Assembly: GCA_013151915.1 (NCBI GenBank)
Contig: JAADHJ010000006.1
Span: 1-64,000, forward strand
Direction: 5' to 3'
Origin: Deltaproteobacteria bacterium
GTDB taxonomy: Bacteria > BMS3Abin14
DNA length: 64,000 nt
Shown here piece by piece: positions 1,245 to 61,038 of the stretch. Numbering within the stretch: position 1 is the first letter of the stretch; each line of letters starts with the position of its first letter. Position numbers and translations under genes: made by a program. The notes below the pieces were generated by a model, which saw only the letters and a list, made by a program, of their open reading frames with translations, made no database searches and was not told the DNA's origin.

Positions 1245-1293
1245 TTGATGACTTCGCAAAAAGTCATGGATGGCCTTTTTACGACCCTGTCAA
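1245..1293 (+). repeat. Family A repeat, minimal copy (ends only)
   Basis: A 49-bp element in the nusG-rplK gap made of little more than the two family A ends: TTGATGACTTCGCAAAAAGTC at left and CTTTTTACGACCCTGTCAA at right, folding back on each other. The sequence CAACCT occurs at 1239-1244 and again at 1291-1296, which may be a target duplication that shares bases with the right end. Confidence 0.8.
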
Positions 1294-1314
1294 CCTGTAG
1301 GAAGGAAACGGCAA

Positions 1315-1740
1315 ATGGCCAAGAAAGTCATTGGGTTCATTAAACTTCAGATACCGGCCGGACAGGCCAATCCGTCACCTCCTGTCGGCCCGGCGCTGGG
1401 CCAGCATGGGGTTAATATTATGGAGTTCTGCAAGGCCTTTAATTCCAAAACCCAGGACCAGGGCGGTATGATTATTCCCGTGGTGATAACGGTTTACGCT
1501 GATCGGTCCTTCAGCTTCATTACAAAAACCCCCCCTGCGGCCGTTCTTCTCAAGAAGGCGGCGGGCCTTGAAAAGGGCTCCGGGGAACCAAACCGGGTCA
1601 AGGTGGGGAAGGTGACAAAGGCCCAGGTCGAGGAGATCGCCAGAACCAAGCTTGAGGACCTGAACGCCTACGACCTCGAGAATGCCGCCAGGATGGTCGA
1701 GGGTACCGCCCGAAGTATGGGGATCGTGGTTGAAGATTAA
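1315..1740 (+). CDS. rplK: 50S ribosomal protein L11
   Basis: L11 forms the GTPase-associated centre of the large subunit with L10 and L7/L12 and contacts 23S rRNA helices 43-44. The 141-residue product starts [20 protein letters not shown] and contains the hallmark [21 protein letters not shown]. Length is typical. The ATG at 1315 follows GGAAGGAAA. In-frame codons further upstream lie in the repeat at 1245-1293 and are not conserved in L11. First gene of the rplKAJL-rpoBC cluster. Confidence 0.97.
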
Positions 1741-1813
1741 AAACCAGGCGCCGGGTACCGGGGCCTGCTCCCTGAGACCTGGTCACCGAGGTCTATTTAC
1801 TGATTTTGGGAGA

Positions 1814-1969
1814 TGATGACTTCGCAAAAAGTCATCAATGCGCCCACTGAAGGGCGCCCAAATCAATGACTTGCGTTGCAAGTCCTTAGATTTGTGAGGA
1901 AAGTGAAAATGACACTTTTCGCTTTCCGTAGAGTAAAAAGCCACGCATGGACTTTTTACGACACTGTCA
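1814..1969 (+). repeat. Family A repeat, full-length copy
   Basis: A 156-bp copy in the rplK-rplA gap. It has five consecutive hairpins: the left end TGATGACTTCGC...GTCATCA; GCGCCC/GGGCGC; a GACTTGC-centred hairpin; GAAAGTGAAAA/TTTTCGCTTTC; and GTAAAAAGCC/ACTTTTTAC at the right. GGAGATGAT is present both at 1809-1817 and at 1970-1978, so GGAGA flanks the element on each side like a target-site duplication. Confidence 0.9.
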
Positions 1970-1984
1970 GGAGATGATCGAGAG

Positions 1985-2686
1985 ATGAAAGCTGGAAAGA
2001 GATATCTGCAGGCCGCCGAAAAGATCGACAGGAACAGGACCGTGGATTTTGAGACCGCCGTTTCCCTTGTGAAGGAGACCGCCGGAGCCAGGTTCGATGA
2101 GACCATAGAGTGTGCTGTCCGGCTTGGGGTGGATCCCCGGCGCAGCGATCAGATGGTAAGGGGCGCGACGGTGCTTCCCCAGGGATTGGGAAAGACAGTG
2201 CGGGTCATTGTCTTTGCCAAGGGTGAGAAGGAGAAGGAAGCAAGAGACGCCGGTGCTGATTACGTCGGTTCCAATGATCTTGCCGAAAAAATACAGGGCG
2301 GCTGGCTCGAATTCGACCGGGTCGTCGCCACACCCGACCTAATGGGGATCGTGGGAAAACTGGGTAGAACCCTGGGACCGCGAGGGCTTATGCCCAACCC
2401 GAAACTTGGGACGGTGACATTCGACCTCGTCAAGGCAATCGAGGAAATCAAGGCCGGAAAGACTGAATTTAAAACCGAGAAAAACGGGATCGTCCATTCT
2501 CCCATCGGCAAGGCGAGCTTCACCAACGAGCAGCTACTGGAGAATCTTGAAGCCTTTCTGGGGACCTTGCTGAAACTGAAGCCGGCTGCCAGTAAAGGCC
2601 GATATTTCAAGAGTATTGCCCTGACATCCACGATGGGGCCAGGGGTCAAGATCGATCCCGTCTGGGCCGTTAACGCCCTTCGTTAG
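1985..2686 (+). CDS. rplA: 50S ribosomal protein L1
   Basis: L1 builds the mobile stalk at the tRNA exit site and often autoregulates its own mRNA. The 233-residue protein is of normal length, starting [17 protein letters not shown] and carrying the RNA-binding [17 protein letters not shown] region. ATG 1985 follows GAGAG. The gene sits directly behind a family A repeat that fills the rplK-rplA gap, so any L1-responsive leader between them has been displaced or interrupted. Confidence 0.97.
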
Positions 2687-2689
2687 GGG

Positions 2690-2933
2690 GCAGAACCAGA
2701 TATCAATATTGCCACACCGGATGTTCAATGACAGCAGGGTCAGCCTTCGTCCGATGAGATGACAAACTCAGGGCTATGGCCGATTAAACGCCCCACGGGC
2801 GCCCAGCCGAGGCACGGTGCGGATCCAAGGCATTCCATGAAGATTACCTGGATAGCTGAGGGCCACTTCAAGTCTCATCACGTCTTTGCCGGACCGGCGT
2901 GGATAAACTCACGTCAACTGACCATGAGAAGAA
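2690..2933 (+). promoter_or_regulatory. Probable L10 leader (rplJL autoregulatory region)
   Basis: The roughly 255 bases between rplA and rplJ contain no conserved coding sequence and many potential stems (for example ACGCCCCACGGGCG around 2790). In most bacteria this position carries the L10 leader, which binds the L10-(L12) complex to repress rplJL. The assignment rests on position and length. I have not matched the covariance model. Confidence 0.4.
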
Positions 2934-2945
2934 AGGAGGTTGAAG

Positions 2946-3467
2946 TTGGCTCGTACCGATCGAGACAAACAAGTTGAGGAACTGCACAGCCTTTTCAGCG
3001 AAATGGAGATGGCCGTCCTTGCGGATTACCGCGGTCTGACGGTTGCTGATTTATCAGAATTTCGCACCCGGCTTCGTGAGGTTCAGGGCAGGTTCCGTGT
3101 CGTGAAAAATACCCTGTCCATTCGTGCTGCCGAGGGAACCCCTTTGGAATCAGTCAAAGAACATTTCGTGGGTCCGGTGGGCATCCTTTTCACCGCGGGC
3201 GACCCGGTGGGGCCTGCCGAGGCGCTCGTTAAATTCATGGAGGACCACGAGAACCTCGAACTAAAGGTGGGGATTCTCGCCGGAAAGGTTATCAGCCTGA
3301 ATGAGATCAAGACACTGGCTGCTCTTCCCGACAGGGATACATTGTTGGCGACAACACTGGCCACTTTCCAGGCGCCTGCCGGAAGCTTTGTTCGGCTCCT
3401 GTCGGAGATTTCCGGCAGCTTTGTCAGGGTGATGGATGCTATTCGAACCCGGAAGGAAGCCGCCTGA
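2946..3467 (+). CDS. rplJ: 50S ribosomal protein L10
   Basis: L10 anchors the L7/L12 dimers to the ribosomal stalk base. The product of about 173 residues begins MARTDRDKQVEELHSLF and has the typical ADYRGLTVADLSEFR segment. TTG 2946 is chosen because GGAGG at 2935-2939 lies 6 bases before it. The in-frame TTG at 2940 abuts the ribosome site. The long upstream gap probably holds its autoregulatory leader, and a family A repeat separates it from rplL. Confidence 0.95.
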   Translation: MARTDRDKQVEELHSLFSEMEMAVLADYRGLTVADLSEFRTRLREVQGRFRVVKNTLSIRAAEGTPLESVKEHFVGPVGILFTAGDPVGPAEALVKFMEDHENLELKVGILAGKVISLNEIKTLAALPDRDTLLATTLATFQAPAGSFVRLLSEISGSFVRVMDAIRTRKEAA

Positions 3468-3497
3468 TCGCGAATATCCGGGATAGGGCTTAAATAA

Positions 3498-3654
3498 TTG
3501 ATGACTTCGCAAAAAGTCATCAACGTGCCCACTGAAGGGCGCCCAAATCAATAACTTGCGTTGCAAGTCATTGATTTGTAAAGAAAGTGAAAATGAAATT
3601 TTTCGCTTTCCGTGGAGTAAAAAGTCATGAATGGACTTTTTACGACCCTATCAA
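3498..3654 (+). repeat. Family A repeat, full-length copy
   Basis: A 157-bp copy between rplJ and rplL with the same five-hairpin layout and direction as 1814-1969. Left end TTGATGACTTCGC, right end GACTTTTTACGACCCTATCAA. It separates the normally tightly coupled stalk genes L10 and L7/L12. Confidence 0.9.
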
Positions 3655-3697
3655 TGATTAATATAAAATCACAATAGTATTTGGGAGGAAAGGTAAA

Positions 3698-4075
3698 ATG
3701 GCTGACGTTACAAAAGATGATGTGGTTAAATTTATTGAGAATATGACCGTTCTCGAAATGGCGGAATTCGTCAAGGAATTGGAGGAAAAATTCGGCGTGA
3801 GCGCAGCCGCCCCGGTCGCGGTAGCCGCCGCGGCCCCGGGTGCCGTCGCCGAGGCCGAGGAGAAAACCGAATTTGACGTCATACTCTCCGATATCGGAGC
3901 TGAGAAGATCAAGGTTATCAAGGTAGTCAGGGCACTCACCGGGCTTGGACTCAAGGAGGCCAAGGACGTGGTTGACGGTGCCCCCGGGCCCGTCAAGGAA
4001 GGTGTCTCCAAGGATGAGGCCGAAGACGCCAGGAAACAGCTCGAGGAAGTCGGCGCCAAGGTGGAGGTAAAGTAG
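3698..4075 (+). CDS. rplL: 50S ribosomal protein L7/L12
   Basis: The flexible stalk protein that recruits translation factor GTPases. 125 residues: an N-terminal dimerisation domain ([25 protein letters not shown]), an Ala-rich hinge ([15 protein letters not shown]), and a C-terminal factor-binding domain with [23 protein letters not shown] 3698 follows GGGAGGAAAGG. It is separated from rplJ by a repeat but has its own strong ribosome site, fitting its higher copy number. Confidence 0.97.
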
Positions 4076-4095
4076 CCCCACCCACGAGAATTTCC

Positions 4096-4125
4096 GGAGG
4101 AGCACCCCCTGTGTGGTGTTCCTCC
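4096..4125 (+). terminator. Attenuator-like hairpin between rplL and rpoB
   Basis: GGAGGAGCACC (4096-4106) pairs with GGTGTTCCTCC (4115-4125), 11 pairs with one G-U, loop of 8. No clean U-tract follows, so it is probably a partial terminator or RNA-processing site. A partial terminator at this junction is known in Escherichia coli, where it lowers rpoBC relative to ribosomal protein expression. Confidence 0.55.
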
Positions 4126-4169
4126 ATTAAACCCTTTGTTTGACACGCCTTTTACAATGAGGTGAAGTG

Positions 4170-7100
4170 ATGGCAAAAGCCGCGCAGACCAGGTTTTCTC
4201 TGAGAAGAGACTATTCACGATTGCCCTCGATCATAAGTATGCCCAACCTGATTGAGGTTCAGAAGGAATCCTACGAGAAGTTCCTCCAGATGAATGTACC
4301 ACCTACTGAACGGGAGGAAGTCGGCCTTCAGGCTGTGTTCAAGGGGATATTCCCCATAGAGGATTACTCCAGGACGACTCTCCTCGATTTCGTCGAGTAC
4401 GACATCAGGGAACCGAAATTCGATGTCCAGGAGTGTCAGGACCGAGGGATGACTTTTGCCGCCCCCCTGAATGTGACGATCAGGCTTATCCACCTTGACG
4501 TGGATGAGGAGACCAAAACAAAAAAGGTCCGGGAGGTCAAGGAGCAGGAGGTTTACCTGGGGGAGATTCCCCTCATGACCCAAAACGGCACTTTCATCAT
4601 CAACGGAACCGAGCGGGTCATCGTAAGCCAGCTTCACAGGTCGCCCGGGGTGTTTTACGAACTGGATAAGAGCAAAAGCATGTTCGCCGGAAGGCCGCTA
4701 TATTCCGCCAGGGTTATTCCCTACAGGGGATCGTGGCTGGATTTCGAATACGATGCAAAGGGACTTGTTAATGTCCGTATCGACCGGCGGCGCAAGATCC
4801 CTGCCACTATTCTTCTTAAGGCGTTGGGATTTCGTCCGGAGGAGATCCTCCGCCAGTTCTACCTTGTCGACCGGGTTGTCCTCAGGGACGGTAAAGCGTT
4901 CAAGATCTACCAGAAGGAGACCCTGGAATTTCAGAAGGCGTCCAGGGAGATCATGGACCCGATCAGCGGCGATGTCCTCGTCAGGGGGGGGCGAAAAGTT
5001 TTTGCCTCCACCATAAAGAAGATCGAGGCGGCGGGTCTCGTTGAATATGAAGTCGACCCCGAGGAGGATGTGGTAGGGAAATATCTGGCATCCCCCGTGG
5101 TGGACACGGCCACCGGGGAAATTATAGGCGAATGCAACGAGGAGATCACCCAGGAGGTTTATGATCGGATCATAGAGGCCGGCGTCGAGGAAATTGAGAC
5201 GATATTTATCGACAACCTCAGGTATGAAGCGTCCGTCAGGGCAACTCTGGCGGCCGATAAAGCCGCCGACAGCAACGAGGCGTTGCTGGAGATCTATCGG
5301 AAACTCAGGCCTGGTGATCCACCTACTCTTGAGACTGCAAAAACCCACTTCGACCGCCTTTTCTTCTCCGATGAGCGATACGATCTCTCCAGGGTGGGAA
5401 GATTGAAGCTCAACAAGAAACTGGGTCTGGATACACCGCTGGGGATGAGGACCCTGATGAGCGAGGACATCGTCGCCATCATGCAGTACCTCATCAGGCT
5501 GAGAAGTGGTGCCAAGGATGCCCAGATGGATGACATCGATCACCTGGGGAACCGCCGGGTCAGGAGTGTCGGCGAACTTTTGGAAAACCAGTTCAGGATA
5601 GGTTTGGTTCGCATGGAGAGGGCTATCAAGGAGAGAATGAGCATCCAGGAGATGGAAACCGTCATGCCCCATGACCTCATCAATGCAAAGCCTGTCTCCG
5701 CCGTGGTCAAGGAGTTTTTCGGCAGCAGCCAGCTCTCCCAGTTTATGGATCAGACCAACCCCTTGTCGGAGATAACCCACAAGAGACGGCTTTCGGCACT
5801 GGGCCCAGGTGGTTTGACGAGGGAACGAGCCGGGTTTGAGGTTCGTGACGTTCACCCTACCCACTACGGTCGCATCTGTCCCATCGAGACACCGGAAGGA
5901 CCCAATATCGGGTTGATTTCGAGCCTTAGCACGTATGCCCAGATCAACGAATTCGGGTTCATAGAAACTCCCTACAGGATTATCAGGGACGGGGTGGTCA
6001 CCAAGGAGATCGTTTATCTTTCAGCCCTTGATGAGGACAGGTACGTAATCGCCCAGGCGAACGCGGTCCTGGATGAGGAGGGTCGATTCGCCGGCGAGTT
6101 GGTGTCCGCCCGCAAGAGCGGCGAGCCGACCATGATCGGCCGGGATAATGTCGATCTGATGGACGTATCACCCAAACAGCTTGTATCGGTCGCCGCTTCT
6201 CTCATCCCGTTCCTCGAGAACGACGATGCCAACCGCGCCCTGATGGGATCCAACATGCAGAGACAAGCCGTGCCGCTCCTGCGGACCAGCGCGCCGCTCG
6301 TCGGAACCGGGATGGAGTCCATTGCCGCCAGGGATTCCGGCGCTGTCGTGGTGGCAAAGAGGGGCGGCAAGGTCGAGAGTGTCGAGGCAAACCGCATTGT
6401 GATTCAGGTGGATGAGTCCGAGGAAGAGAAGGAAGGCGTTGAAGGCTCATCCAACGTGGATATTTACCATCTGATCAAATTCAAGAGGTCCAATCAGAAC
6501 ACCTGCATAAATCAGGTCCCCATCGTTGAGCCCGGTCAAAACGTCCTGTCGGGAGATGTCATTGCGGACGGTCCTGGAACGGACGGCGGTGATCTTGCCC
6601 TGGGGCAGAATATTCTGGTCGCCTTCATGCCCTGGGGTGGCTACAATTTCGAAGACTCTATCCTTGTGAGTGAAAAGCTTGTTCAGGAAGATGTATTCAC
6701 ATCCATCCACATCGAGGAATTCGAGGTGATGGCCCGCGACACCAAGCTGGGTAAAGAGGAAATAACCCGGGATATTCCTAACGTAGGAGAGGAAGCCCTC
6801 AAGGATCTTGACGGGTCCGGCATCGTACGGATCGGCGCGGAGGTTGCTTCGGGCGATATCCTCGTGGGGAAGGTGACTCCCAAGGGTGAGACCCAGCTGA
6901 CACCCGAGGAGAAGCTCCTCAGGGCGATTTTCGGAGAGAAGGCCGGCGATGTCCGCGATACATCTCTCCGTGTTCCTCCGGGTGTCGAGGGTGTTGTCAT
7001 TGATGTAAAGGTCTTCTCGAGAAGGGGAATGGATAAGGATGCCCGGGCCCAGGAAATCGAGGACGATCAGGTGGGCAGGTACATCAAGGACCGTGACGAT

Positions 7101-8327
7101 GAGATCAGGCTCGTTCGCAACAGCATGTATGAAAAGGTACGGGCCACTATCATCAACCGTAAACTGGCCGCGGCGGTGACCGGGCCTGATGGGACCGTCC
7201 TTGGGAAAAAGGACGGCAAGGCTACTGGAAAGCTCCTTGACGAGCTGCCGAGGGTCAAGTGGTTCGATATCCCCCTGTCGGACTCCAAGGCCATGGAGAG
7301 GCTCCTTGCGCTCCGACAAAGAGCTGAAAACCAGGAGGAAATGATCCGTTCCCTGTTTGATGGGAAGATTGAAAAGCTGCGGAAGGGCGATGAATTGCCT
7401 CCCGGTGTAATCAAGATGGTCAAGGTCTATCTGGCAATCAAACGGCACCTTTCTGTTGGGGATAAAATGGCCGGTAGACACGGGAACAAAGGTGTGCTTT
7501 CCAAAATCGTTCCGGTGGAGGATATGCCGTACATGGAGGACGGTACGACGGTGGAAATGGTCCTGAATCCTCTGGGGGTTCCGAGCCGCATGAATGTTGG
7601 ACAGATCCTGGAAACAATGCTGGGTTGGGCGGCAAAGGGGGTTGGTGAGCAGGTCAACAAACTCCTCGATTCCGGAGCCGCGACCAACGCCCTTCGCCAA
7701 TATTTAAAATCCATATATACCAGTGAAATTGTCACAGAGTCCACTGGAAGGGCCTTCAACCTTATTGATGGGTTGGACGATGACGAGCTTCGAGATGTCA
7801 TTCGGAAGATGAAAAAAGGGATACTTCTGGCTTCTCCGGTTTTCGACGGGGCCGATGAGGGTGATATCCGCGCCCTTCTTACGAAGGGGGGGCTACCGAT
7901 CAGAGGCCAGGCCGGGCTTTACGACGGCAGGACCGGTCTTCCCTTTCAGCGAAAGGTCACGGTGGGCATCATCTATATGTTGAAGCTCCATCATCTGGTT
8001 GATGACAAGATCCACGCCAGGTCAATCGGTCCGTATTCGCTTGTCACACAGCAGCCTCTGGGCGGAAAGGCCCAGTTTGGCGGGCAGAGGTTTGGTGAGA
8101 TGGAGGTCTGGGCTCTCGAAGGATACGGAGCCGCTCATACCCTGCAGGAGATGCTCACCGTAAAGTCCGACGATGTGGCAGGCAGGACCAAGATGTACGA
8201 GGCCATCGTCAAAGGTACCAACACCGTGGATGCCGGCCTCCCCGAGTCGTTCAATGTGCTTGTTAAGGAACTCCAGAGCTTCTGCCTGGATGTGGAGCTG
8301 CTGGAGGTTGAGGACGTGGACGTTTAA
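4170..8327 (+). CDS. rpoB: DNA-directed RNA polymerase subunit beta
   Basis: The beta subunit of RNA polymerase, 1385 residues. The rifampicin-pocket stretch is recognisable ([21 protein letters not shown], then LSALGPGGL), with wild-type residues at the usual resistance positions. Further motifs are [13 protein letters not shown] and, near the C-terminus, [43 protein letters not shown] (split by eye). ATG 4170 is preceded by AGGTGA; GTG 4167 is too close. It forms the usual pair with rpoC. Confidence 0.98.
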
Positions 8328-8364
8328 CCTATAAATTCTTTCCTTCCTTTCAGGAGGTTGATGA

Positions 8365-12459: not shown

Positions 12460-12511
12460 ACTGACTCCGCCGCAACCCGGATTCGACACGGTTTTGTGCG
12501 TTGATTTGCCC

Positions 12512-12540
12512 TTGACAAATCTGGGGCATGCTGGTAGCTT
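12512..12540 (+). promoter_or_regulatory. Candidate promoter of the str operon
   Basis: A perfect -35 hexamer TTGACA (12512-12517), 17 bases, then TAGCTT (12535-12540), a weak -10. It lies in the 292-base gap between rpoC and rpsL, the longest gap in this part of the block. The rest of the gap (12460-12751) shows no gene. Confidence 0.4.
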
Positions 12541-21426: not shown

Positions 21427-21429
21427 AAC

Positions 21430-21563
21430 TGATGACTTTGGAAAAAGTCATCAACGCATCCCATTGAGGGACGCGCAAATCGAAGATTTGTGAGGAAAGT
21501 GAAAATGACATTTTTCGCTTTCCGTGAAGTAAAAAGCCACTGATGGACTTTTTACGGCCTTGG
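21430..21563 (+). repeat. Family A repeat, diverged copy
   Basis: A 134-bp copy between rpsQ and rplN. The left end is altered (TGATGACTTTGGAAAAAGTC), the central hairpin is shortened to AAATCGAAGATTT, and the right end has decayed to CTTTTTACGGCCTTGG. The same direction as the genes. Confidence 0.85.
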
Positions 21564-21579
21564 AAAGAAGGGATTTAAG

Positions 21580-28597: not shown

Positions 28598-28816
28598 ATG
28601 GCAAAGGAAGAGGCCATTGAAGTAGAGGGGACAGTGGTGGAACCGCTGCCTAACGCGATGTTTCGCGTCGAGTTGGAAAACGGTCACCAGGTGCTTGCCC
28701 ATATTTCAGGGAAAATGCGCATGCATTACATCAGGATTCTACCTGGGGATAAGGTGACGGTTGAGCTTTCCCCCTATGATCTTACAAGGGGAAGAATTAC
28801 CTACAGGGCCAAATAA
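28598..28816 (+). CDS. infA: Translation initiation factor IF-1
   Basis: A 72-residue OB-fold factor that blocks the ribosomal A site during initiation. [19 protein letters not shown] and [23 protein letters not shown] are hallmarks. ATG 28598 follows AAGGAGAG. A family B repeat starts at the base after its stop codon. Confidence 0.97.
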
Positions 28817-28887
28817 TGATGGACTCGCAAAAAGTCATCTCCCGTCTCGGAAAACGGCTCAGAGAGATCTTTTTACGAGGTTGTCAA
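28817..28887 (+). repeat. Family B repeat, short copy
   Basis: A 71-bp element starting TGATGGACTCGCAAAAAGTC directly after the infA stop and ending CTTTTTACGAGGTTGTCAA. AATAA is found at 28812-28816 and at 28886-28890, a possible target duplication. The core CTCCCGTCTCGG...CGGCTC differs from family A. Confidence 0.8.
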
Positions 28888-29415: not shown

Positions 29416-29572
29416 TTGATGACTTTGCGAAAAGTCATCAATGCGCCCATTAAGGGGCGCGCAAATCAATGACTTGCAGGGCAAGTTGTTGATTTGTGAG
29501 GAAAGTGAAAATGACATTTTTCGCTTTCCGTGGAGTAAAAAGCCATGTATGGACTTTTTACGACCCCATCAA
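29416..29572 (+). repeat. Family A repeat, full-length copy
   Basis: 157 bp between rpsM and rpsK, all five hairpins present. AAAC precedes the element (29412-29415) and AAAC is found at its right edge (29571-29574). Extended comparison gives AAACTTGATG at left and AAACCTGATG at right. The same direction as the genes. Confidence 0.9.
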
Positions 29573-31774: not shown

Positions 31775-31781
31775 TGAAAAA

Positions 31782-31882
31782 TGATGGACCTGCAAAAAGT
31801 CCATCAAGCAGGATGTGCGCGGAGTGGAAGCCATCTCCCGCCTCGTAAAATAGCTTGAAGAGACTTTTTTCGGGGTTGTCGA
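31782..31882 (+). repeat. Family B repeat
   Basis: 101 bp between rpoA and rplQ: TGATGGACCTGCAAAAAGTC at left, a core with AAGCAGGATGTGCGCGGAG, and GAAGAGACTTTTTTCGGGGTTGTCGA at right in two parts. It shares its core with 34790-34891, 52840-52980 and 58969-59069. Confidence 0.8.
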
Positions 31883-31940
31883 AAATGGACGTCCGGGCGG
31901 GTTCTGAATGTTGATGTAACAGGGAAAGGTAGGGGGTTTT

Positions 31941-34607: not shown

Positions 34608-34732
34608 TTAAAAAGTCCATTAATGGTTTTTACTTAACGGAAAGCGAAAAGTGCCATTTTCACTTTTCGTGGAAATCTTCGATTTGAGCGCCCTTAAGTG
34701 GTCGCCTTGATGACCTCTCACGAAGTCATCAA
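34608..34732 (-). repeat. Family A repeat, inverted, left end truncated
   Basis: Starts right after the ATPase stop with TTAAAAAGTCC and ends CGAAGTCATCAA. Inner hairpins are present (GGAAAGCGAAAA...TTTTCACTTTTC, GAGCGCCC). Orientation is opposite to the flanking genes. A family B copy follows 58 bases on. Confidence 0.85.
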
Positions 34733-34789: not shown

Positions 34790-34891
34790 CAAGCAGGATG
34801 TGCGTGAAGCGTGCAGACTGGCGGGGGAGCCACGCCAATGGCGTGACCACCGAGAAAAACGGTTTGAAGAGACTTTTTACGAGGTTATCAA
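34790..34891 (+). repeat. Family B repeat, left end lost
   Basis: Core AAGCAGGATGTGCGTGAAGCG and right end GAAGAGACTTTTTACGAGGTTATCAA (as two joined pieces). It lies directly upstream of trpB2, filling most of its leader together with the inverted family A copy. Confidence 0.75.
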
Positions 34892-38410: not shown

Positions 38411-40317
38411 GAAGGTGTTTCGCAATCCTCTGTGCAACTGTCCTCTTTGCCGCGACAGCTATGGCCGCCGACGGATCCATCCGTATCCGGGCTGCCTCCA
38501 TGGCGGCCAGGTCCGACGGGACGCTTGTGGCTGAGGGGGGAGTAACAATTGTGGGCCAGGGGATTACCGCTCACGCGGACAGGATGACATATGATCCAGC
38601 CAGATCCTTCTTAAGCCTTTCGGGCAATGTTCTGCTTGAGGATCGTAGCGGGGGGAAGTCGACCGGCGATACCATGGACCTTGATCTTGGAACCATGGAG
38701 GGGGGGATCAAGGGAGGGGAAATCATTCTGGAACCGACCGGCTACCGGATCAGGGGGGAAAGCATCAGGCGTCTCGCGCCGGATGAGTACGAGGTGAAAA
38801 AGGGAACCCTTACCTCCTGCCCGGGAGACTGTCCGGACTGGTCCCTGACCGCCTCGAAAATCCGGGTTAAAAAAGAGGGCTATCTGACGGCGAGAAACGT
38901 CACTTTTCGCCTGGCGGGTATCCCTGTCTTCTATTCGCCGTACCTGGTATATCCCGTCAAGGCCGGGAGACAGACGGGGTTCCTTCTGCCGGAGGTGGGG
39001 TTTACCGATGCCCGCGGATGGGAGGCATATTTTCCATTTTTTGCCACCTTGGGGCAATCGGCCGACCTGACCTTGACCCCGGAGACCTTCAGCCGGGACC
39101 GGATGGGTCTGAATGGTGAATTCCGATATCTACTGCCCTATGGCGGGGGCGGCAGGTGGTCGGGTTTTGCCATCGGAGATAGGGGAGATGGCGGCGACAC
39201 CGGTCGATATTTCGTTTCGGGAAGCCATGCTCTCGCCATCCTCCCTGGTTTCTGGATGAGGGGAAGGTGGTATGATGCAGGAAATTTCAACACCCCAGCC
39301 GATTTCGGAGCGACCTTCGATCAGCGCAACCCCGGTCTCGTAGACAGGCACATCAGCCTCGATTTCGAGGGGGGTGGAATATCCCTTTGGGCCGGGCTGT
39401 CGGATCTTGCTCCCAATGGCGCCACGGTGCGAACCGGTCCGACCCTCGGGAGAGCGGAGGCGGGCGCCGCGATCGGCCCCATCTCGTACGGCGCCGGGAC
39501 AGCCGCCCTTTCCATGGACGTTACCCGGTTCAAGGGCGGTGACGAACGTTTTCTCATAACCCCGCGGTTGTCCGCCGACTGGGACGGCCCCGGGGGCCTT
39601 GCGGGGCGTCTTTCGGGGGAGTGGACGGGTTCGGCTGAGATCGAGGGGTCATCGTCCGATTCCATGGCTGTCGTAACACTGGAGGAAAGGCTCGCTCTCT
39701 CCCGATCCTTTTCCTGGGGTCTGCATCGCCTGGATATCTCTCTCCTTGGAGGTGTGGCGGACGGGTATTCCTTTGCCACGACCGGCAGCAGAGACGGACT
39801 TGACGCCGGCCGGGAGAGCTCTGTGGTGGCGGGACATATCCGGAGCCGAATTAACGCAGGCGCCCTGAACTGGGACCTCCAGGCGGGGGTGTTAAGAGAC
39901 TTCCATCAGGAGGAGTCCGTTGTTTTCGGCAGAACTTCCCTGCGTCGTGGACCGTGGTTTCTCGGGGGAACCTGGAACCGCGACGCAAAATACGGGCTTA
40001 TCCTTCCCATCGCGTCGTCCGTGTCTACGCAGAGCCATGGGTGGACCGTGGAGACCGGCTACGAGACGGACCGGCTGATGTTGAGGGTAACGCGCAATGA
40101 AGCGGATGGGTCGCCGGGTGTCCTGTCCGGGTCTTACCGCGTTTCACTGGGGGCATTCAGAGTGTCCGGTACTGCACAGTACGACCTGGACGCCGAAGAT
40201 ATCTCTGACGATACTCGGACGATTACATACGGGGCCACATGCTGGGAACTGTCCCTGACCCAGAGCCGTAACAGGGGCGGAACCAGGTGGAAACTCAACG
40301 CCGCGATAAGGTATTGA
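38407..40317 (+). CDS. lptD: LPS-assembly protein LptD
   Basis: The outer-membrane beta-barrel that inserts lipopolysaccharide. 636 residues, at the short end for the family. A signal peptide ([21 protein letters not shown]) is followed by an LptA-like jellyroll (GGVTIVGQGITAHADRMTYD) and a barrel with ETFSRDRMGLNGEFRYLLP. It ends in a terminal aromatic, Tyr, as barrels do. GTG 38407 overlaps the folC stop. Its TGA lies within the left end of a family A repeat. Presence implies an LPS outer membrane. Confidence 0.88.
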   Translation: MRRCFAILCATVLFAATAMAADGSIRIRAASMAARSDGTLVAEGGVTIVGQGITAHADRMTYDPARSFLSLSGNVLLEDRSGGKSTGDTMDLDLGTMEGGIKGGEIILEPTGYRIRGESIRRLAPDEYEVKKGTLTSCPGDCPDWSLTASKIRVKKEGYLTARNVTFRLAGIPVFYSPYLVYPVKAGRQTGFLLPEVGFTDARGWEAYFPFFATLGQSADLTLTPETFSRDRMGLNGEFRYLLPYGGGGRWSGFAIGDRGDGGDTGRYFVSGSHALAILPGFWMRGRWYDAGNFNTPADFGATFDQRNPGLVDRHISLDFEGGGISLWAGLSDLAPNGATVRTGPTLGRAEAGAAIGPISYGAGTAALSMDVTRFKGGDERFLITPRLSADWDGPGGLAGRLSGEWTGSAEIEGSSSDSMAVVTLEERLALSRSFSWGLHRLDISLLGGVADGYSFATTGSRDGLDAGRESSVVAGHIRSRINAGALNWDLQAGVLRDFHQEESVVFGRTSLRRGPWFLGGTWNRDAKYGLILPIASSVSTQSHGWTVETGYETDRLMLRVTRNEADGSPGVLSGSYRVSLGAFRVSGTAQYDLDAEDISDDTRTITYGATCWELSLTQSRNRGGTRWKLNAAIRY

Positions 40318-40450
40318 TGACTTCGTAAGAAGTCATCAAAGCGCCCACTTAGGGGCGCTCAAATCGAAGATTTGTGAGGAAAGAGAAAATGACATTTTTC
40401 GCTTTCCGTTGAGTAAAAAGGCAAGGATGGACTTTTTACGACCCTATCAA
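40314..40450 (+). repeat. Family A repeat
   Basis: 137 bp, left end TTGATGACTTCGTAAGAAGTC, right end GACTTTTTACGACCCTATCAA, shortened central hairpin AAATCGAAGATTT. The lptD stop codon TGA (40315-40317) is part of the left end. Confidence 0.88.
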
Positions 40451-51674: not shown

Positions 51675-51697
51675 AACCCGGAATCCTCGGAGCGGCC

Positions 51698-52852
51698 ATG
51701 CAAAGTCTTGCTCAAATTCTGAAGGATAACAAACCGCGGGCGACCCTCGCCCTTGCGGACGGCACCGTCCTGCATGGATGGGGTTTCGGGACATCCGGGA
51801 CGGCTGTGGGCGAGGTTGTCTTTAACACATGTATGACAGGTTACCAGGAAGTCCTCACCGATCCCTCCTACCACCGTCAGATCGTGGTGATGACCCCCAC
51901 GCAGATCGGAAATACAGGGGTTAATTCAAACGATAGTGAATCGGCCAGGCCATATGTCGCCGGCTTCATCGTTCGGGAGAGTTCCCTGCTCACGAGCAGC
52001 TGGAGGGCGGATGAAGGGATGGAAAGCTTTCTGGCGAGGAATGGGATCACCGGGATCGAGGGTATAGACACCCGTGCATTGACGAAGCACCTTCGTGATC
52101 ACGGGGCACAGGGCGGAGTGATCGGCATCGGTGATGTTGATCCGGATGAACTCATTGCAAAGGCGAGGGGATGGGGCAGCATGGAGGGCAGGGACCTTGT
52201 CACGGAGGTAACCCCTTCCGAAGAATACAGGTGGGAAGAGGGCCCGTTTCATCCTGTTGCCGGGTTTGCCGAGGTTGAAAAAACGCGGCGCGTTGTAGCA
52301 ATGGATTTCGGAATAAAACGTAATATTCTCCGGGAATTAGCGGGTTCAGGTTGCGAGGTGACGGTGGTTCCGGCTTTCACCTCCCCGGAGAGGATCCTGG
52401 AACTTTCGCCGGATGGGATCTTCCTCTCCAACGGTCCGGGCGACCCGGGGCCGGTCAGATATGCCGTTGATACCGTGAGGGCCCTTCTGGGCAAAGTCCC
52501 CATTTTCGGGATCTGTCTGGGGCACCAGATCCTCGGCCTGGCGCTGGGCGGTCGTACTCGCAAGCTGGTGTTCGGGCACCACGGGGGAAATCACCCCGTG
52601 AAGGACCTCTCCACGGGGAAGGTGGAGATTACATCGCAGAACCACGGGTTCGTTGTGGATTCCGACTCCCTCCTCGCGGCCGGCCAGCGGGTTGAGGTGA
52701 GCCATATCAACCTGAACGACGGGACGGTGGAGGGAATACGGCATCTGGAGATTCCCGTTTTTTCCGTCCAGTACCATCCCGAGGCATCCCCGGGGCCCCA
52801 CGACTCACACTACCTTTTCCACCGTTTTGTTGAACTTATGACTATCCCGTAA
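51698..52852 (+). CDS. carA: Carbamoyl-phosphate synthase small (glutaminase) subunit
   Basis: Supplies ammonia from glutamine to CarB. 384 residues. The catalytic Cys C273 is in GICLGHQ, with the His/Glu partner in [11 protein letters not shown]. The stop TAA falls inside a family B repeat (CCCGTAAAAAGTC), so the last residues are specified by the repeat. It is separated from carB by that repeat. Confidence 0.96.
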
Positions 52853-52980
52853 AAAGTCTCTTCGAGCCTTTTTACGGGGCGGTCAAGCCAACGGCGTGAT
52901 TCCCCCGCCAGGCGAAGCGAATCCACCTGGTTCCACCCCCACCCAAGGATGTACGCTCCGCGCACATCCTGCTTGATGGA
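52840..52980 (-). repeat. Family B repeat, inverted
   Basis: Runs from CCCGTAAAAAGTCTCTTCGAG to GCGCACATCCTGCTTGATGG. It covers the carA stop codon and most of the 144-base carA-carB gap. The extra internal part CCAACGGCGTGATTCCCCCG is also visible (inverted) in the copy before trpB2. Confidence 0.8.
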
Positions 52981-52996
52981 GTAGGAGAATAATACT

Positions 52997-55900: not shown

Positions 55901-56194
55901 GGGACGCAGAAGTTCCTTGGCGAGCGGGGCATCCCGGCCGATTTTGTACGAAAGGTACGGGAGGGCCGTCCCCACGTTGTGGATGCCATCATCAACGGCG
56001 GAGTCCAGCTTGTCATCAACACCGTTGAGGGGGCCAAATCCATTCAGGATTCCTACACCATCCGGCGATCGGCTGTGGACAGGAACGTGGCGTACTTTAC
56101 CACCATCCCCGGTGCCAGAGCGGTGGGCCTGGGCATACAGGCTTTGAGGAAGAAAGATTGGGACGTCAAGGCCCTTCAGGATTACGTTTACTGA
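52997..56194 (+). CDS. carB: Carbamoyl-phosphate synthase large subunit
   Basis: Makes carbamoyl phosphate from bicarbonate, ammonia and 2 ATP. 1065 residues with two homologous ATP-grasp halves: [20 protein letters not shown] near residue 14 and [17 protein letters not shown] near 558. Then the MGS-like regulatory domain with [10 protein letters not shown]. The start is TTG 52997 with AGGAG upstream. Confidence 0.97.
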
Positions 56195-56244
56195 TCCTTT
56201 CGATTTTCATCCCGGCGGTCCTGACTGAATGCCGGGGGTAAAGA

Positions 56245-56298
56245 ACGTTCAACGTTCAATCTGGAACCCCCTGTCCACCATAGCTTTAGCGAAGGTGG
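56245..56298 (+). repeat. Heptamer pair and small palindrome before pyrK
   Basis: The 135-base carB-pyrK gap holds GTTCAACGTTCAAT (56247-56260), two GTTCAAY units. It also holds the palindrome CCACCATAGCTTTAGCGAAG-GTGG (56275-56298), copies of which lie at 61184-61206 and 61605-61630. Confidence 0.75.
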
Positions 56299-56329
56299 AT
56301 GGAACCCATAAACCGCGAGGCAATTGACG

Positions 56330-57178
56330 ATGGCATGCACCGACGGTCCTGTAGAAGCTGTTTCCTCCCTGACCCGGGCACGGGTGATCTCCAACACCCG
56401 TGTGGCGGAGGGGCTTTTCATCATGAGGGCGGAGGCTGCCGGCTGGACGGGGGGCGATCCGGCCCCGGGACAGTTCATCATGCTGCGGATTTCAGACGGG
56501 GACGACCCGCTCCTGGGGCGGCCGTTCGGGATTGCCGGGTTTCGGATGATTGAAAATGGGGCCGAGATCGATGTCATCTACAGAACCGTGGGGCGAGGGA
56601 CCATGGCAATGGCCACATGGGTCCCCGGCAGAGCAGTACGGTTTCTCGGCCCTCTCGGGCGCGGTTTTCCCCTGCCCCCCAAAGGTTCCCAAAGCATTTT
56701 TATCGCCGGTGGGGTGGGACTTCCGCCGTTGCTGGCGCTGGTTCGCCGGATGGTTGAACTGGGGCGGGGAGAGGAGGTGACCCTCCTTTACGGGGAGGCC
56801 AATGCCGGGCGAATGCTGGACCTCGGCAACGAGAAGGACCTGCAGGTACGCTTTCGCATCTGCACCGAGGACGGAAGCGGCGGCTTTAAAGGCCTCGTGA
56901 CTGATCTTCTGGTGAGCATGGGTGGCCTTGAGGACGCCCATCTTTACGTCTGCGGACCAAGCCCCATGATGCGTGCCGTACATCGTCTGGCCCAGGGAAA
57001 ATGCCTGACGTCGCACTATTCCCTTGAATCCCGGATGGCGTGCGGCTTCGGGGTGTGTATGGGCTGCGCCGTTATGGTGCTGTCTGCGGGTAAGACGGAG
57101 TACGTAAGGGCTTGCCGCGAGGGCCCGGTTTTCCCCGGTGGGATGCTCGTTGAGGAGTCCTTTCCGGAGAGGATATAG
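56330..57178 (+). CDS. pyrK: Dihydroorotate dehydrogenase electron transfer subunit
   Basis: The FAD/2Fe-2S partner that passes electrons from class IB PyrD to NAD. 282 residues. FAD site RPFGIAG with R64, NAD-binding GGVGLPPLLALV, and the iron-sulfur cysteines C238, C243, C246 and C262. ATG 56330 is 9 bases after GAGG. TTG 56324 is an alternative. Confidence 0.93.
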   Translation: MACTDGPVEAVSSLTRARVISNTRVAEGLFIMRAEAAGWTGGDPAPGQFIMLRISDGDDPLLGRPFGIAGFRMIENGAEIDVIYRTVGRGTMAMATWVPGRAVRFLGPLGRGFPLPPKGSQSIFIAGGVGLPPLLALVRRMVELGRGEEVTLLYGEANAGRMLDLGNEKDLQVRFRICTEDGSGGFKGLVTDLLVSMGGLEDAHLYVCGPSPMMRAVHRLAQGKCLTSHYSLESRMACGFGVCMGCAVMVLSAGKTEYVRACREGPVFPGGMLVEESFPERI

Positions 57179-57202
57179 AGGTATCGAAGTATGGGTAAAC
57201 GC

Positions 57203-57243
57203 AGTCCAGACTCTGGACACTGGACTCCGCGACTCTGGACTTT
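57203..57243 (+). repeat. 7-bp-period satellite between pyrK and pyrD
   Basis: GTCCAGA-CTCTGGA-CACTGGA then CTCCGCGA-CTCTGGACT. The same units are found after lepA and pyrR, here mixed in both directions so that the run can fold on itself. Confidence 0.65.
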
Positions 57244-57258
57244 ATTAAAGGGGTTACG

Positions 57259-58185
57259 ATGATTGACACTACTGTAGACCTGGGGCGGGGGCTGGTCATA
57301 AAGAACCCCGTGATGACCGCGTCAGGAACATTCGGCTACGGGGAGGAGGCCTCGGCCTACTTTGACCTTTCAGAGCTGGGGGCTGTAGTGGCCAAGGGGA
57401 TCTCCCTGCTGTCCATGGAGGGAAACCCGCCTCCCAGGGTTGTTGAGACCCCCGCGGGCATGTTGAACTCCATTGGGCTTCAGAATGTGGGTGTGGAACG
57501 GTTCGTGGCCGACAAGTTGCCCTTTCTTGTGGAATCGGGGGCTGTGATTATCGCCAACATCCTCGGCGGTTCCATCGGTGAATACGTCAAGGTGGCCGAA
57601 AGGCTTACCGGGGCCGATGGGATTTCCGCGCTGGAGGTCAATATTTCCTGTCCCAATGTCAAGGAGGGTGGAGTGCAGTTCGGGATGCGGCCCGAGCTTG
57701 CCGCAGAACTGGTCGCCGCCCTCCGGAGCGCAACCGGCCTCCATCTCATGGTGAAACTCTCTCCCAATTCCGGAGATATTCCGGAAATGGCCGGGGCGGT
57801 CCGTGATGCGGGGGCGGATTCCATTTCCCTGATCAACACGGTCACCGGGATGGAGATCGACATCCGCACCCGCAGCCCCGTTCTTGGGAGGGTGATAGGC
57901 GGGTTGTCCGGTCCGGCCATCCGTCCCATCGCCCTGAGAATGGTCTACGAGGCGGCCCTTGCGGTGGACATCCCCGTTGTGGGGATCGGCGGGATCGGCG
58001 ACCCGGAGAATGCCATAAAGTTTCTCATCGCCGGGGCCAGCGCTGTCCAGGTCGGTACCGCGACCTTCACCGATCCCTCGGCGCCCATGAGGATTGTCAG
58101 GGGGGTCCGTTCGTTCATGGAGGGGCAGGGGATGCATTCCCTCGGCCAGGTGGTGGGAAGCCTGGTTGTTGATGATCCATTGTGA
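57259..58185 (+). CDS. pyrD: Dihydroorotate dehydrogenase, class IB catalytic subunit
   Basis: Oxidises dihydroorotate to orotate with FMN. 308 residues. The active base C131 lies in NISCPNVKEGG, which marks class I; the partner pyrK directly upstream makes it IB. FMN phosphate site GIGGIGDPENA. ATG 57259. Confidence 0.96.
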   Translation: MIDTTVDLGRGLVIKNPVMTASGTFGYGEEASAYFDLSELGAVVAKGISLLSMEGNPPPRVVETPAGMLNSIGLQNVGVERFVADKLPFLVESGAVIIANILGGSIGEYVKVAERLTGADGISALEVNISCPNVKEGGVQFGMRPELAAELVAALRSATGLHLMVKLSPNSGDIPEMAGAVRDAGADSISLINTVTGMEIDIRTRSPVLGRVIGGLSGPAIRPIALRMVYEAALAVDIPVVGIGGIGDPENAIKFLIAGASAVQVGTATFTDPSAPMRIVRGVRSFMEGQGMHSLGQVVGSLVVDDPL

Positions 58186-58278
58186 TTTGCCAAACGTGTT
58201 GATTTTCACACTCTTTATTGTTACTCAGATAGGCGATGTACGCAGTGAGGCGCGGTTTTACATGAACGAGGAATCATT

Positions 58279-58968
58279 ATGGCCGGTGGTCTGATAGTAG
58301 CGCTGGATATGGATGATCAGGACGAGGCCTGTGTCCTGGCAGAGGAAGTTGGTGAGAAGGTAGCCGCGCTCAAGGTGGGGGCACAGCTGTTTTCCGTGGC
58401 CGGTCCGGATATAGTCCGCCGAATTCAGGGAGCAGGGGCAAGGGTTTTCCTGGATCTGAAGTTCCACGATATTCCCAATACGGTGAGGAAGGCGGTGGAA
58501 GCGGTGGTCCCTTTAGGTATCTCTTTCTTTACCGTCCACGCCTCGGGGGGAAGGGATATGATATCGGCTGCCAAGGATGCCGCCGGGGACTCGAAGGTCC
58601 TGGCCGTCACAATCCTGACGAGCCTTGGGAAAGGGGATATGTCCGAGATAGGGTTCGGGGGGGATATTGAGGAGCAGGTTGTCAGGTTGGCAAAATTGGC
58701 CAGGGCCGCCGGCGCCGACGGCATTGTCTGTTCCCCCCTTGAGGTCTCACGATTAAGGGACGAACTTGACGGCGGGTGTATCCTGGTGACTCCGGGCGTC
58801 AGGCCGGCCGGATCAGCAGGAGACGACCAGACCAGAATCGCCACACCCGCGCGGGCGGTTAGGGCGGGGGCCGATTACCTTGTGGTGGGGCGGCCCGTGG
58901 TCAAGGCTTTTGACAGGGTTCAGGCGGTTGAAATGATCCTTGATGAAATGGGGGCAAATAGGGCATAA
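58279..58968 (+). CDS. pyrF: Orotidine 5'-phosphate decarboxylase
   Basis: The last step, OMP to UMP. 229 residues. Catalytic FLDLKFHDIPNTV (residues 55-67) and the phosphate loop VTPGVRP. Start ATG 58279 after GAGGAATC. 93 bases separate it from pyrD. A family B repeat follows one base after its stop. Confidence 0.96.
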   Translation: MAGGLIVALDMDDQDEACVLAEEVGEKVAALKVGAQLFSVAGPDIVRRIQGAGARVFLDLKFHDIPNTVRKAVEAVVPLGISFFTVHASGGRDMISAAKDAAGDSKVLAVTILTSLGKGDMSEIGFGGDIEEQVVRLAKLARAAGADGIVCSPLEVSRLRDELDGGCILVTPGVRPAGSAGDDQTRIATPARAVRAGADYLVVGRPVVKAFDRVQAVEMILDEMGANRA

Positions 58969-59069
58969 TCAATAGACTCGCAAAAAGTCCGTCAAGCGGG
59001 ATGTGCGCGGGGGGGAGCCATGCCCCGCCTCGTAAAATGCCTGGAAGAGACTTTTTACGAGGTTAGCAT
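58969..59069 (+). repeat. Family B repeat
   Basis: TCAATAGACTCGCAAAAAGTC, core AAGCGGGATGTGCGCGG, then GAAGAGACTTTTTACGAGGTT. It begins one base after the pyrF stop and separates it from the receiver gene. Confidence 0.8.
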
Positions 59070-59115
59070 AGTGGGAGCGATTATTTTGGAGGGGTAGTTT
59101 CAGAGGGAGGCTATG

Positions 59116-59499
59116 ATGGTGCAGAAAATTCTCATCGTTGAAGACAACATCGTGATTTTAACCATGCAAAAACAGATCTTCGAGATGGAAGGCTATGAGA
59201 TAATCACCGCGCAGGAGGGAATGGATGCCCTCAAGAAGGTTCATGAGGCGCATCCGGATATCGTCCTCCTCGACGTGAATATCCCGGGTATGAACGGTTT
59301 TGAGCTTTGTAGGCAGATCAAGGAGGATCCTTCCCTTTCGGATATCATCGTTGTCATGATCTCGGCGGTTTACTACTCCGATGAGGATGCCAAAAAGGGG
59401 ATGGCCATGGGCGCCGACGCCTATTTCACAAAGCCCTATGAAAACGAGGTCCTCCAGAACAAGATCAAGGAGCTTCTCGAATCCCGTAATGTCGGATAA
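59116..59499 (+). CDS. Stand-alone response-regulator receiver protein
   Basis: 127 residues, only a receiver domain (CheY/Spo0F-like): acidic E9-D10, phospho-acceptor D53 in VLLDVNIPG, Lys in YFTKPY. No output domain. ATG 59116 is 5 bases after GGGAGG, and ATG 59113 is an alternative. It lies between pyrF and pyrE and overlaps pyrE by 11 bases, an unusual neighbour for a pyrimidine gene. Confidence 0.9.
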   Translation: MVQKILIVEDNIVILTMQKQIFEMEGYEIITAQEGMDALKKVHEAHPDIVLLDVNIPGMNGFELCRQIKEDPSLSDIIVVMISAVYYSDEDAKKGMAMGADAYFTKPYENEVLQNKIKELLESRNVG

Positions 59500-60067
59500 A
59501 ATTCTTCTTTCCATCTTCCGGGAGAAGGGGGCCCTTCTGGAAGGCCACTTCGGCCTGACTTCCGGCAAGCACAGCCCGGTTTATCTTCAATGTGCCCTGG
59601 TCCTGCAATATCCTGATGTTGGAAGGGATCTCGGTAGCAGGCTGGCCGAGAGGGTGGGAGAGGGGATCGACCTCGTAGTGTCACCAGCGGTTGGAGGCAT
59701 TGTTATCGGGCAGGAGGTAGCTTGGGCCCTCGGTGCGAGGGCAGTGTTCACCGAGAGAGTTGATGGAAAAATGGCCCTGCGCCGCGGATTCACGGTTAAT
59801 CCCGGTGAGAGAATTCTGGCTGTGGAGGACGTGGTTACCACCGGGGGATCCATCAGGGAGGCCGCAGACCTTGCTGTCGAACTGGGTGGCAACCTGGTTG
59901 CCACCGCTTCACTGGTGCATCGCTACATTGATAAACCTGTCGATCCCACCCCATATCCGCACTTTTCGCTTCTGCCGATTCATGCCCCCGCCTTCGAACC
60001 CGGCCAATGTCCCCTGTGCCGTGAAGAGATCCCCATGGAAAAACCCGGGAGCAGAGCGCTTAAGTAA
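59489..60067 (+). CDS. pyrE: Orotate phosphoribosyltransferase
   Basis: Joins orotate to PRPP giving OMP. 192 residues. PRPP motif VEDVVTTGGS (about residues 111-120). C-terminal extension with GQCPLCREEIPMEKPGSR, a CxxC form seen in a subgroup of bacterial PyrE. ATG 59489 overlaps the receiver gene in another frame, so translation is probably coupled. Confidence 0.95.
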   Translation: MSDKILLSIFREKGALLEGHFGLTSGKHSPVYLQCALVLQYPDVGRDLGSRLAERVGEGIDLVVSPAVGGIVIGQEVAWALGARAVFTERVDGKMALRRGFTVNPGERILAVEDVVTTGGSIREAADLAVELGGNLVATASLVHRYIDKPVDPTPYPHFSLLPIHAPAFEPGQCPLCREEIPMEKPGSRALK

Positions 60068-60118
60068 AAATAAAGTCAGGGTCGCTGTTTTATCCCGTTT
60101 GAGGTTCGACGTTGAACT

Positions 60119-60206
60119 TTGATAGGGTCGTAAAAAGTCCATTCGTGGCTTTTTACTTAACGGAAAGCGAAAAGTGTCATTTTCACTTTCCTCACAAATC
60201 TTCGAT
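60119..60206 (-). repeat. Family A repeat end, left of the HD-GYP cargo
   Basis: From TTGATAGGGTCGTAAAAAGTC to CACAAATCTTCGAT, matching the first 88 bases of the inverted copy at 60904-61038. Homology stops at 60206 where the HD-GYP-bearing insert begins. The first hairpin (AAAAAGTCCA...TGGCTTTTTA) may also terminate pyr transcription. Confidence 0.85.
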
Positions 60207-60214
60207 AATAGTGG

Positions 60215-60868
60215 TCAGGTGCAGAACCTTGTTAGCCATTGCTTATTGTTTATAAAAACCTTGAAGACATCCGGATCAAAACAATGCATATTTTTTCTCA
60301 TAATATTTATTGCATCATCAACCTGCAACGTAGACCTGTAAGGACGGCTTGATGTTAATGCATCAAAATAATCAGCCACTCGTATAATTCTTGCAATCAG
60401 GGGGATCTCATCTCCCTTTAGACCGTTTGGATACCCAGTGCCATCATAGTTTTCATGGTGGCTGAGAATGGCATCGTTCAACATCGGATTATAGTCAAAA
60501 TCGGCAATAAGTTTTCTGCCTAGAAATGTATGAAATTTGATCATCTCAAATTCTGCCTCAGTTAATAATGTCGGCTTATTCAAAATAAACTCGTCCACTG
60601 CGATTTTCCCGACATCATGAATGATTGCTGCCATTCTCACAGTATCCAAATTAACAAATTGGTCGGAAAACCCTGACTCTGCAATGTTGAGCGTTATTTC
60701 TGCCACATGATCAGAATGGTTTTTTGTATAAGGGTTTCTTAATCCAATTGCAGCACTCATTAGGTTGGTTGCACACTTGATATCGATGATATTTTCTTCT
60801 CCCTCAGCTATAGCAGCTCTATGGCCGGCGATAGTCTGCATGTGATTGGAGATAGAAGAATCTTTCAT
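60215..60868 (-). CDS. HD-GYP domain phosphodiesterase
   Basis: 217 residues, a single HD-GYP domain for cyclic di-GMP hydrolysis: H84-D85 in IHDVGKIA, HHENYDGTGYPNG (137-149), and FDALTSSRPYR. ATG 60868 is chosen because an ATG at 60898 lies in the repeat terminus and has no ribosome site. GAGGG lies about 11 bases upstream of 60868. Base use is much AT-richer than the neighbours, suggesting transfer. No receiver domain. Confidence 0.88.
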   Translation of the reverse strand: MKDSSISNHMQTIAGHRAAIAEGEENIIDIKCATNLMSAAIGLRNPYTKNHSDHVAEITLNIAESGFSDQFVNLDTVRMAAIIHDVGKIAVDEFILNKPTLLTEAEFEMIKFHTFLGRKLIADFDYNPMLNDAILSHHENYDGTGYPNGLKGDEIPLIARIIRVADYFDALTSSRPYRSTLQVDDAINIMRKNMHCFDPDVFKVFINNKQWLTRFCT

Positions 60869-60903
60869 GATGTGTGTGCCCTCAGTTTGCGAAGTCATAA
60901 CTG

Positions 60904-61038
60904 TTGATAGTGTCGTAAAAAGCCCATGAATGGTTTTTTACTTAACGGAAAGCGAAAAGTGTCATTTTCACTTTCCTCACAAATCTTCGATTTGAGCGCC
61001 CTGATGGGCGCGTTGATGACTTTTTGCGAAGTCATCAA
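60904..61038 (-). repeat. Family A repeat, inverted
   Basis: 135 bp, TTGATAGTGTCGTAAAAAGC to GACTTTTTGCGAAGTCATCAA, full set of hairpins. It lies 5 bases beyond the right end of the HD-GYP-bearing element and has the same direction, so the two are in tandem. Confidence 0.9.

Follow-up and report, generated by a model that had tools for sequence, protein, structure and literature searches.

What are the 14 short, hairpin-rich repeats of two families, A and B, that lie between the genes of a 64,000-nucleotide stretch from a Deltaproteobacteria bacterium (contig JAADHJ010000006.1, positions 1 to 64,000; this whole stretch is called the window here), and what brought them there? A reading made from the sequence alone had taken them for a set of miniature inverted-repeat transposable elements (MITEs) mobilised in trans by one enzyme. 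Our analysis strongly supports the repeats as a real, mobile and non-autonomous MITE-like set, with many copies genome-wide, consistent ends, empty sites within the genus and a longer, transposase-bearing element in relatives. It is very probable that both families were moved by an IS1182-like DDE transposase into the target YAA-NN-TTR, with duplication of NN, and that this helper is by now lost or reduced to a fragment in the window's own genome; the shared ends suggest that the enzyme acted in trans on the copies of the window.

Copies, shared ends and insertion sites

All 14 copies were confirmed at the places and in the orientations first proposed, and seven of them (1245, 1814, 3498, 21430, 28817, 29416 and 31782) do lie in the secE-to-rplQ block, where Pfam confirmed L14, S13, S11, RpoA and L17 as neighbours. 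The claim of nearly identical ends held for the terminal motif TTGAT-N4-TCGYAAAAAGTC, found at both ends of families A and B as imperfect inverted repeats around different cores, but not for every copy, since the left end is missing at 34790 and 52840 (family B) and at 60119 (family A). The copy at 1245 is likewise a member of family A as proposed but has no core, being a 49-bp minimal form made of the two ends only.

A genome-wide count, suggested by the same reading, returned many copies with consistent ends. A pattern search of the whole genome (2.27 Mb, 60 contigs) for the 16-mer left end GACTTCGCAAAAAGTC with at most one mismatch gave 116 matches against 0 for the reversed control, which excludes chance, and a genome BLAST with the 157-bp rplJ-rplL copy as query aligned 47 family A copies over more than about 115 bp. 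Family A comes in size classes of 157, 137 and 49 bp; the 137-bp class, with many copies, lacks hairpin 3 of the core described below and the 49-bp class lacks every inner hairpin. At least 15 family B-like places were found in 536 kb of stretches of the same genome, where density and context figures refer to stretches taken around copies rather than to the whole genome. By a simple longest-open-reading-frame gene call, on which the orientation and convergent-gap figures given below are also based, 101 of 102 family A copies are intergenic. Short (49-157 bp), without a transposase gene, bounded by terminal inverted repeats and represented by those 116 left ends, the repeats have the properties of MITEs.

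A 2-bp direct repeat flanks 33 of 65 copies from many genomes, where 6.5 were expected when right flanks were permuted (maximum 17 in 20,000), and the agreement falls off at 3 and 4 bp. The duplicated dinucleotide is variable (GG, CA, GA, TG, AG and others) and therefore derives from the target. AA precedes the left dinucleotide and TT follows the right one, often as CAA-NN-TTG, so that the target, YAA-NN-TTR, is a palindrome resembling the termini of the element itself. Among the 49-bp copies, 8 of 20 have matching dinucleotides outside both ends. Head-to-tail copies 2-6 bp apart were common in the genome BLAST; judging from this anatomy, the 2-bp spacing would arise because the target palindrome resembles the element ends, so that the junction CAA-NN-TTG is itself a target.

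Presence and absence were read against a genome of the same genus (G001), about 86-88% identical in the compared regions. Five compared window sites lack the element there: 3498 and 29416 are empty, the latter cleanly (AAGTAAAT-CTGATGG), the elements at 1245 and 31782 are absent and 40314 retains only a short remnant. At 1814 and 21430, a truncated copy is common to both genomes. The other genera inspected (G002, G004 and G008) showed no A copy at any of the three sites on the secE side. The sequence-only reading had held that copies at the same places in distant relatives would speak against mobility, and this is not the pattern observed. The rpoA-rplQ gap is filled by different elements across genera and therefore looks like an insertion hot spot: it holds B in the window, A in inverted orientation in G004 and G009, and A twice in G005. 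The elements in this gap stand at 31781-31883 of the window, L098:14755-15033, L096:16658-16801 and L100:14192-14446.

These sites bear directly on the proposal that the repeats are not mobile DNA but regulatory or terminator sequences of essential operons, fixed in place and passed on vertically. Several copies do stand directly before the ribosome-binding site of ribosomal-protein genes, and the rpoA-rplQ gap holds such elements in three genera, but the elements in that gap and their orientations differ, G002 is without any A copy, and empty sites within the genus, target duplications and tandem copies all disagree with fixed inheritance. We consider this proposal highly improbable and, because the 3498 and 29416 sites are empty, refuted.

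Family A was found by BLAST in 11 of the 12 genomes of the family, the window's own genome included and G002 being the exception, and 49 genomes outside the family gave no A apart from one weak match. An exact left-hairpin scan of named genomes returned 45 stretches, including Zetaproteobacteria (Mariprofundus erugo, with a copy in P3, and metagenome-assembled genomes, MAGs) and Desulfobacterales; by profile, 41 of these 45 hold at least a piece of A, which is full length in several Zetaproteobacteria and reduced to the left hairpin in some stretches. Zetaproteobacteria also have the core of family A complete with its five hairpins, and elements of Desulfobacterales have the same ends with a different core. 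Two MAGs of Deltaproteobacteria/Desulfobacterales carry 155-bp elements with these ends and an unrelated core (AAAAAGTCCATCTGCGGCGTTG...; L084:293-447 and L086:6602-6756), and similar sequence lies on viral contigs L172, L174 and L177. Plasmid and phage collections held no copy, with one chance-level match; in viral contigs the end motif occurs in a number of stretches, with no inward pair bracketing a transposase and no relative of the transposase described below.

An IS1182-like candidate helper

The window was confirmed to lack a transposase: whole-genome profiles for IS30, DDE_Tnp_1 and IS630 matched nothing, Y1_Tnp matched nothing in the window and Pfam gave none among the window open reading frames (ORFs) submitted. 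The predicted longer element, which has the ends of the repeats and carries a gene for a transposase, was found in relatives. In G005, a DDE_Tnp_1 match lies in a 531-aa ORF (L189:1261-2853) bracketed by family ends, and the 1669-bp element abuts a family A copy with a 2-bp spacer. The best family for this ORF was NF033551 (IS1182; E 1.8e-33), with DUF772 and DDE_Tnp_1 domains both present. In G008, TTGATGGCTTCGCAAAAAGT stands at the start of the transposase gene's element, identical to the family A end at 19 of 20 bases, and this end of the insertion sequence (IS) is flanked by ATTCAAGG, the usual target; the copy is situated between TTCAA and TTGAA, in keeping with a palindromic target. Close homologs of the helper were found among 98 genomes only in G001, G005 and G008, all of the window's family, plus a 29-residue piece in the window's own genome (G000). 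A search of 78 genomes of the Mariprofundus class gave two zetaproteobacterial homologs (48-55% identity; ORFs of 585 and 614 aa, apparently full length) in which the segment carrying the presumed catalytic Glu is present and which are likewise bracketed by the end motif. Of nine ends examined on five IS copies, eight match the 17 informative positions of the motif with no more than 3 mismatches, a level at which shuffled sequence gave 0 matches; the same ends are found on IS1182-like elements in G005, G008, G122 and G124, with one end in G001. It is chiefly this link of clade to ends, seen in two phyla, that points to the mover; the reaction itself is inferred.

A number of observations weigh against such a mover. 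Exact duplication is missing in about half of the repeats, and no 2-bp duplication was readable on the IS copies themselves. Every helper copy in the window's own family is damaged: that of G005 is without the segment carrying the presumed catalytic Glu, that of G008 is frame-shifted and split over two contigs, that of G001 is cut off at residue 178 and that of G000 is the 29-residue piece, at a contig end. No helper was found in the zetaproteobacterial A carriers G098-G100, the contigs that carry the two zetaproteobacterial helpers hold no A copy, and the A core and the IS interior share nothing visible beyond the ends. The helper homologs match NF033551 with E values of 1.8e-33 to 3.1e-49 but at 116-168 bits, under the NCBI equivalog cut-off of 270, and therefore belong to a divergent clade.

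The repeats could alternatively be repetitive extragenic palindromes (REPs) or bacterial interspersed mosaic elements spread by a REP-associated tyrosine transposase (RAYT, of the Y1 HUH type), as they are short intergenic palindromes in many copies and the genome holds two intact RAYT-like Y1 genes. No ends, however, lie within about 1 kb of either gene, and neither a GTAG nor a CGTC tag is present. HUH transposition is not known to make a target duplication, whereas one is present here, and the transposase that these ends do enclose is of the DDE type. Already contradicted in this way, a RAYT origin is hardly credible. The two Y1 genes themselves (L031 and L032, on G000 contigs C37 and C44, without A or B ends beside them) are present though the other transposase profiles tried on this genome matched nothing.

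Under the IS1182-like mechanism that we favour, a DDE transposase encoded on a separate element, 1.7-2.0 kb long and bounded by the same ends, would bind the end motif of A, of B or of its own IS. The bound ends would then be joined to the YAA-NN-TTR palindrome across its two central bases; the resulting duplication of NN is visible in the flanks of the repeats, and the part played by the enzyme is what we infer. Insertion would recreate CAA-NN-TTG at both junctions, so that a new target would stand beside each element and head-to-tail copies 2 bp apart could follow. The helpers would subsequently have decayed and been lost in the window's family, being gone or a fragment in the window's own genome, so that its copies would mostly be old. 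Abundant orphan intergenic repeats of little-studied phyla would in this way be tied to a concrete transposase clade, and the tandem copies would have a simple reason, the junction itself being the target.

Other candidates were rejected. IS30 and IS630 have no match in G000, and neither of the two IS30 matches in 11 family genomes carries these ends. Long end-to-end spans in the window's own genome proved to be neighbouring unrelated ends, at 744 bp (a greA-like gene), 1041 bp (a parB-like gene) and 3.9 and 4.0 kb (host genes). Where a left hairpin lacked a right end, at loci of Desulfobacterales and elsewhere, no transposase was recognisable by eye. Arrays of near-heptamers (TTTGAGG/CAAACCT) adjoin the G008 IS copy, and TTGAACG-like units occur in G000 (L213:170-235, L212:2750-2810 and the tail of L210); these arrays are rich in the YAA-NN-TTR target.

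The five-hairpin core

A full family A copy consists of five hairpins in a row, 157 bp that are almost entirely hairpin, followed by GACCCTATCAA. The stems are TTGATGACTT/AAGTCATCAA in hairpin 1 (H1), GCGCCC/GGGCGC in H2, CAAATCAATGAC/GTCATTGATTTG in H3, GGAAAGTGAAAA/TTTTCGCTTTCC in H4 and GTAAAAAGCC/GGACTTTTTAC in H5. Both strands fold far better than shuffled sequence (z -9.4 and -7.3). Across the five helices of 57 full copies, standard pairs fill 97.7% of pair cells, and both sides have changed in 76 cells against 20.8 in shuffles; when the partner was slid by one column, pairing dropped to 47-55%. Compensatory examples include CAAATC/GATTTG to CGGATC/GATCCG in H3 and T-A to C-G in H5, the latter in 26 rows. 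G-U exceeds A-C by 143:28 when counted by cells, by 55:22 without the most variable columns and by about 20:9 when counted by types and private changes, and unpaired columns show no mutation bias able to produce a G-U excess. Since compensatory changes preserve the stems and G-U exceeds A-C, conservation may well act on one strand in its single-stranded form; the independent events are few.

These data permit several explanations. We hold it possible, though on balance doubtful, that the core constitutes a structured single-stranded entity in its own right (RNA or single-stranded DNA of one strand), conserved across phyla and under selection for a separate function, either during transposition or within host transcripts; if so, the IS1182-like machinery would carry a structured passenger and not merely decayed IS remnants. 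A narrower version, in which the core functions as structured RNA or single-stranded DNA and is selected in host transcripts (for instance for mRNA stability, between operon genes) and mobility is its means of spread, is compatible with an IS1182-like mover but seems to us rather unlikely. In its favour, beyond pairing, folding and the G-U excess, private changes in the genome's own copies are rarer in stems (0.7%) than in loops (1.6%; p 0.012), its A copies are oriented with co-directional genes 41 times and against them 23 times (p 0.03), and they avoid convergent gaps (7/96 against 51/257, p 0.004). On the other hand, private-change rates over all 57 rows do not differ between stem and loop, the copies common to G001 are truncated, many copies lack hairpin 3 (137 bp) or all inner hairpins (49 bp), and the G-U excess shrinks to the last ratio given above. 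Rfam returned no family at gathering score, its one match in the window being a tRNA and the best sub-threshold match having E 0.73. The compensatory changes might also come from template switching during replication, which would mend imperfect palindromes without selection for structure. Long perfect stems readily undergo this kind of correction, and single copies do decay. Template switching should, however, yield Watson-Crick pairs only and no strand preference, in disagreement with the excess of G-U over A-C, and we judge it unlikely. As the least certain step of the IS1182-like mechanism, the five-hairpin core would have been kept by compensatory change during spread, most likely since mobility, or tolerance of the element in host transcripts, depends on the single-stranded or hairpin form. 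Should the core structure be functional, the question becomes what makes a mini-transposon retain five hairpins in different phyla.

Window copies and known systems

Coordinates of the window copies, with their neighbours and the state of the site in G001, are collected below.

Repeat copies of families A and B in the window, and one neighbouring gene
Feature	Position	Strand	Context and remarks
tRNA gene	309-382		immediately upstream of secE; ordinary
A, minimal 49-bp form, two ends only	1245..1293	+	nusG-rplK gap; element absent in G001
A, full length, 158 bp	1813..1970	+	rplK-rplA gap, directly before rplA ribosome-binding site; 5'-truncated copy in G001, right junction identical
A, full length, 157 bp	3498..3654	+	rplJ-rplL gap; genome-search query; fold z -9.4; G001 site empty
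A, 138-bp form	21429..21566	+	upstream of rplN; truncated copy common to G001, right junction identical
B, 72-bp form	28816..28887	+	upstream of short rpmJ-like gene, itself before rpsM; family A remnant instead in G001
A, full length	29416..29572	+	rpsM-rpsK gap; 2-bp duplication AC; clean empty site in G001
B	31781..31883	+	rpoA-rplQ gap; empty in G001
A, decayed, inverted	34608..34732	-
B, without left end	34790..34891	+
A, 137-bp form	40314..40450	+	upstream of lepA; only ~14-bp remnant in G001
B, without left end, inverted	52838..52980	-	between carbamoyl-phosphate synthase genes
B, 101-bp form	58969..59069	+	downstream of orotidine monophosphate (OMP) decarboxylase gene
A, without left end, inverted	60119..60206	-
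A, 135-bp form, inverted	60904..61038	-

Outside the window, a 608-aa PAS/histidine-kinase/response-regulator gene lies between family A pieces (L123:11281-13723; G000 contig C10, about 100.8-103.2 kb). The left piece is 23 bp and the right about 75 bp, and the locus resembles a mini-element with a cargo gene; the dinucleotides on its two sides, AG and TG, differ.

The kind of system described here, a MITE with an IS helper, is already known. The variant is new as far as the literature searched goes, in which we found no publication that treats IS1182-family MITEs. IS30 has a palindromic target like its own ends and a 2-bp duplication, and hence tandem forms; the present elements differ from it in transposase family, and G000 is without an IS30 match.

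The candidate helper resembles the IS1182 family (IS1272 of staphylococci, ISPse1) in its DUF772 and DDE domains, with a profile match below the cut-off, in its terminal inverted repeats and in the preference for a palindromic target reported for IS1272 (PMC5678879). IS1272 is reported to target inverted repeats, to replace them and to leave no duplication (PMC5678879), and ISPse1 of Paracoccus is listed with 4 bp (PMC3281130), whereas 2 bp are duplicated here. The pattern fits a variant with loop-only duplication, an outcome of palindrome targeting that the IS1272 paper draws as a possible pathway (PMC5678879). With the Correia/NEMIS and ERIC MITEs (PMC10969869), the repeats share a length of 100-200 bp, many intergenic copies, inverted ends, the lack of a gene, a position inside operons and transcripts that can form long hairpins; they differ in having five separate hairpins in place of one long palindrome, a YAA-NN-TTR target, an IS1182-type helper and a core found across phyla. 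They are short palindromic intergenic repeats like the REP/RAYT palindromes (PMC3733652), from which they are set apart by target duplication, the lack of a tag tetranucleotide and of a RAYT beside the copies, and a DDE helper.

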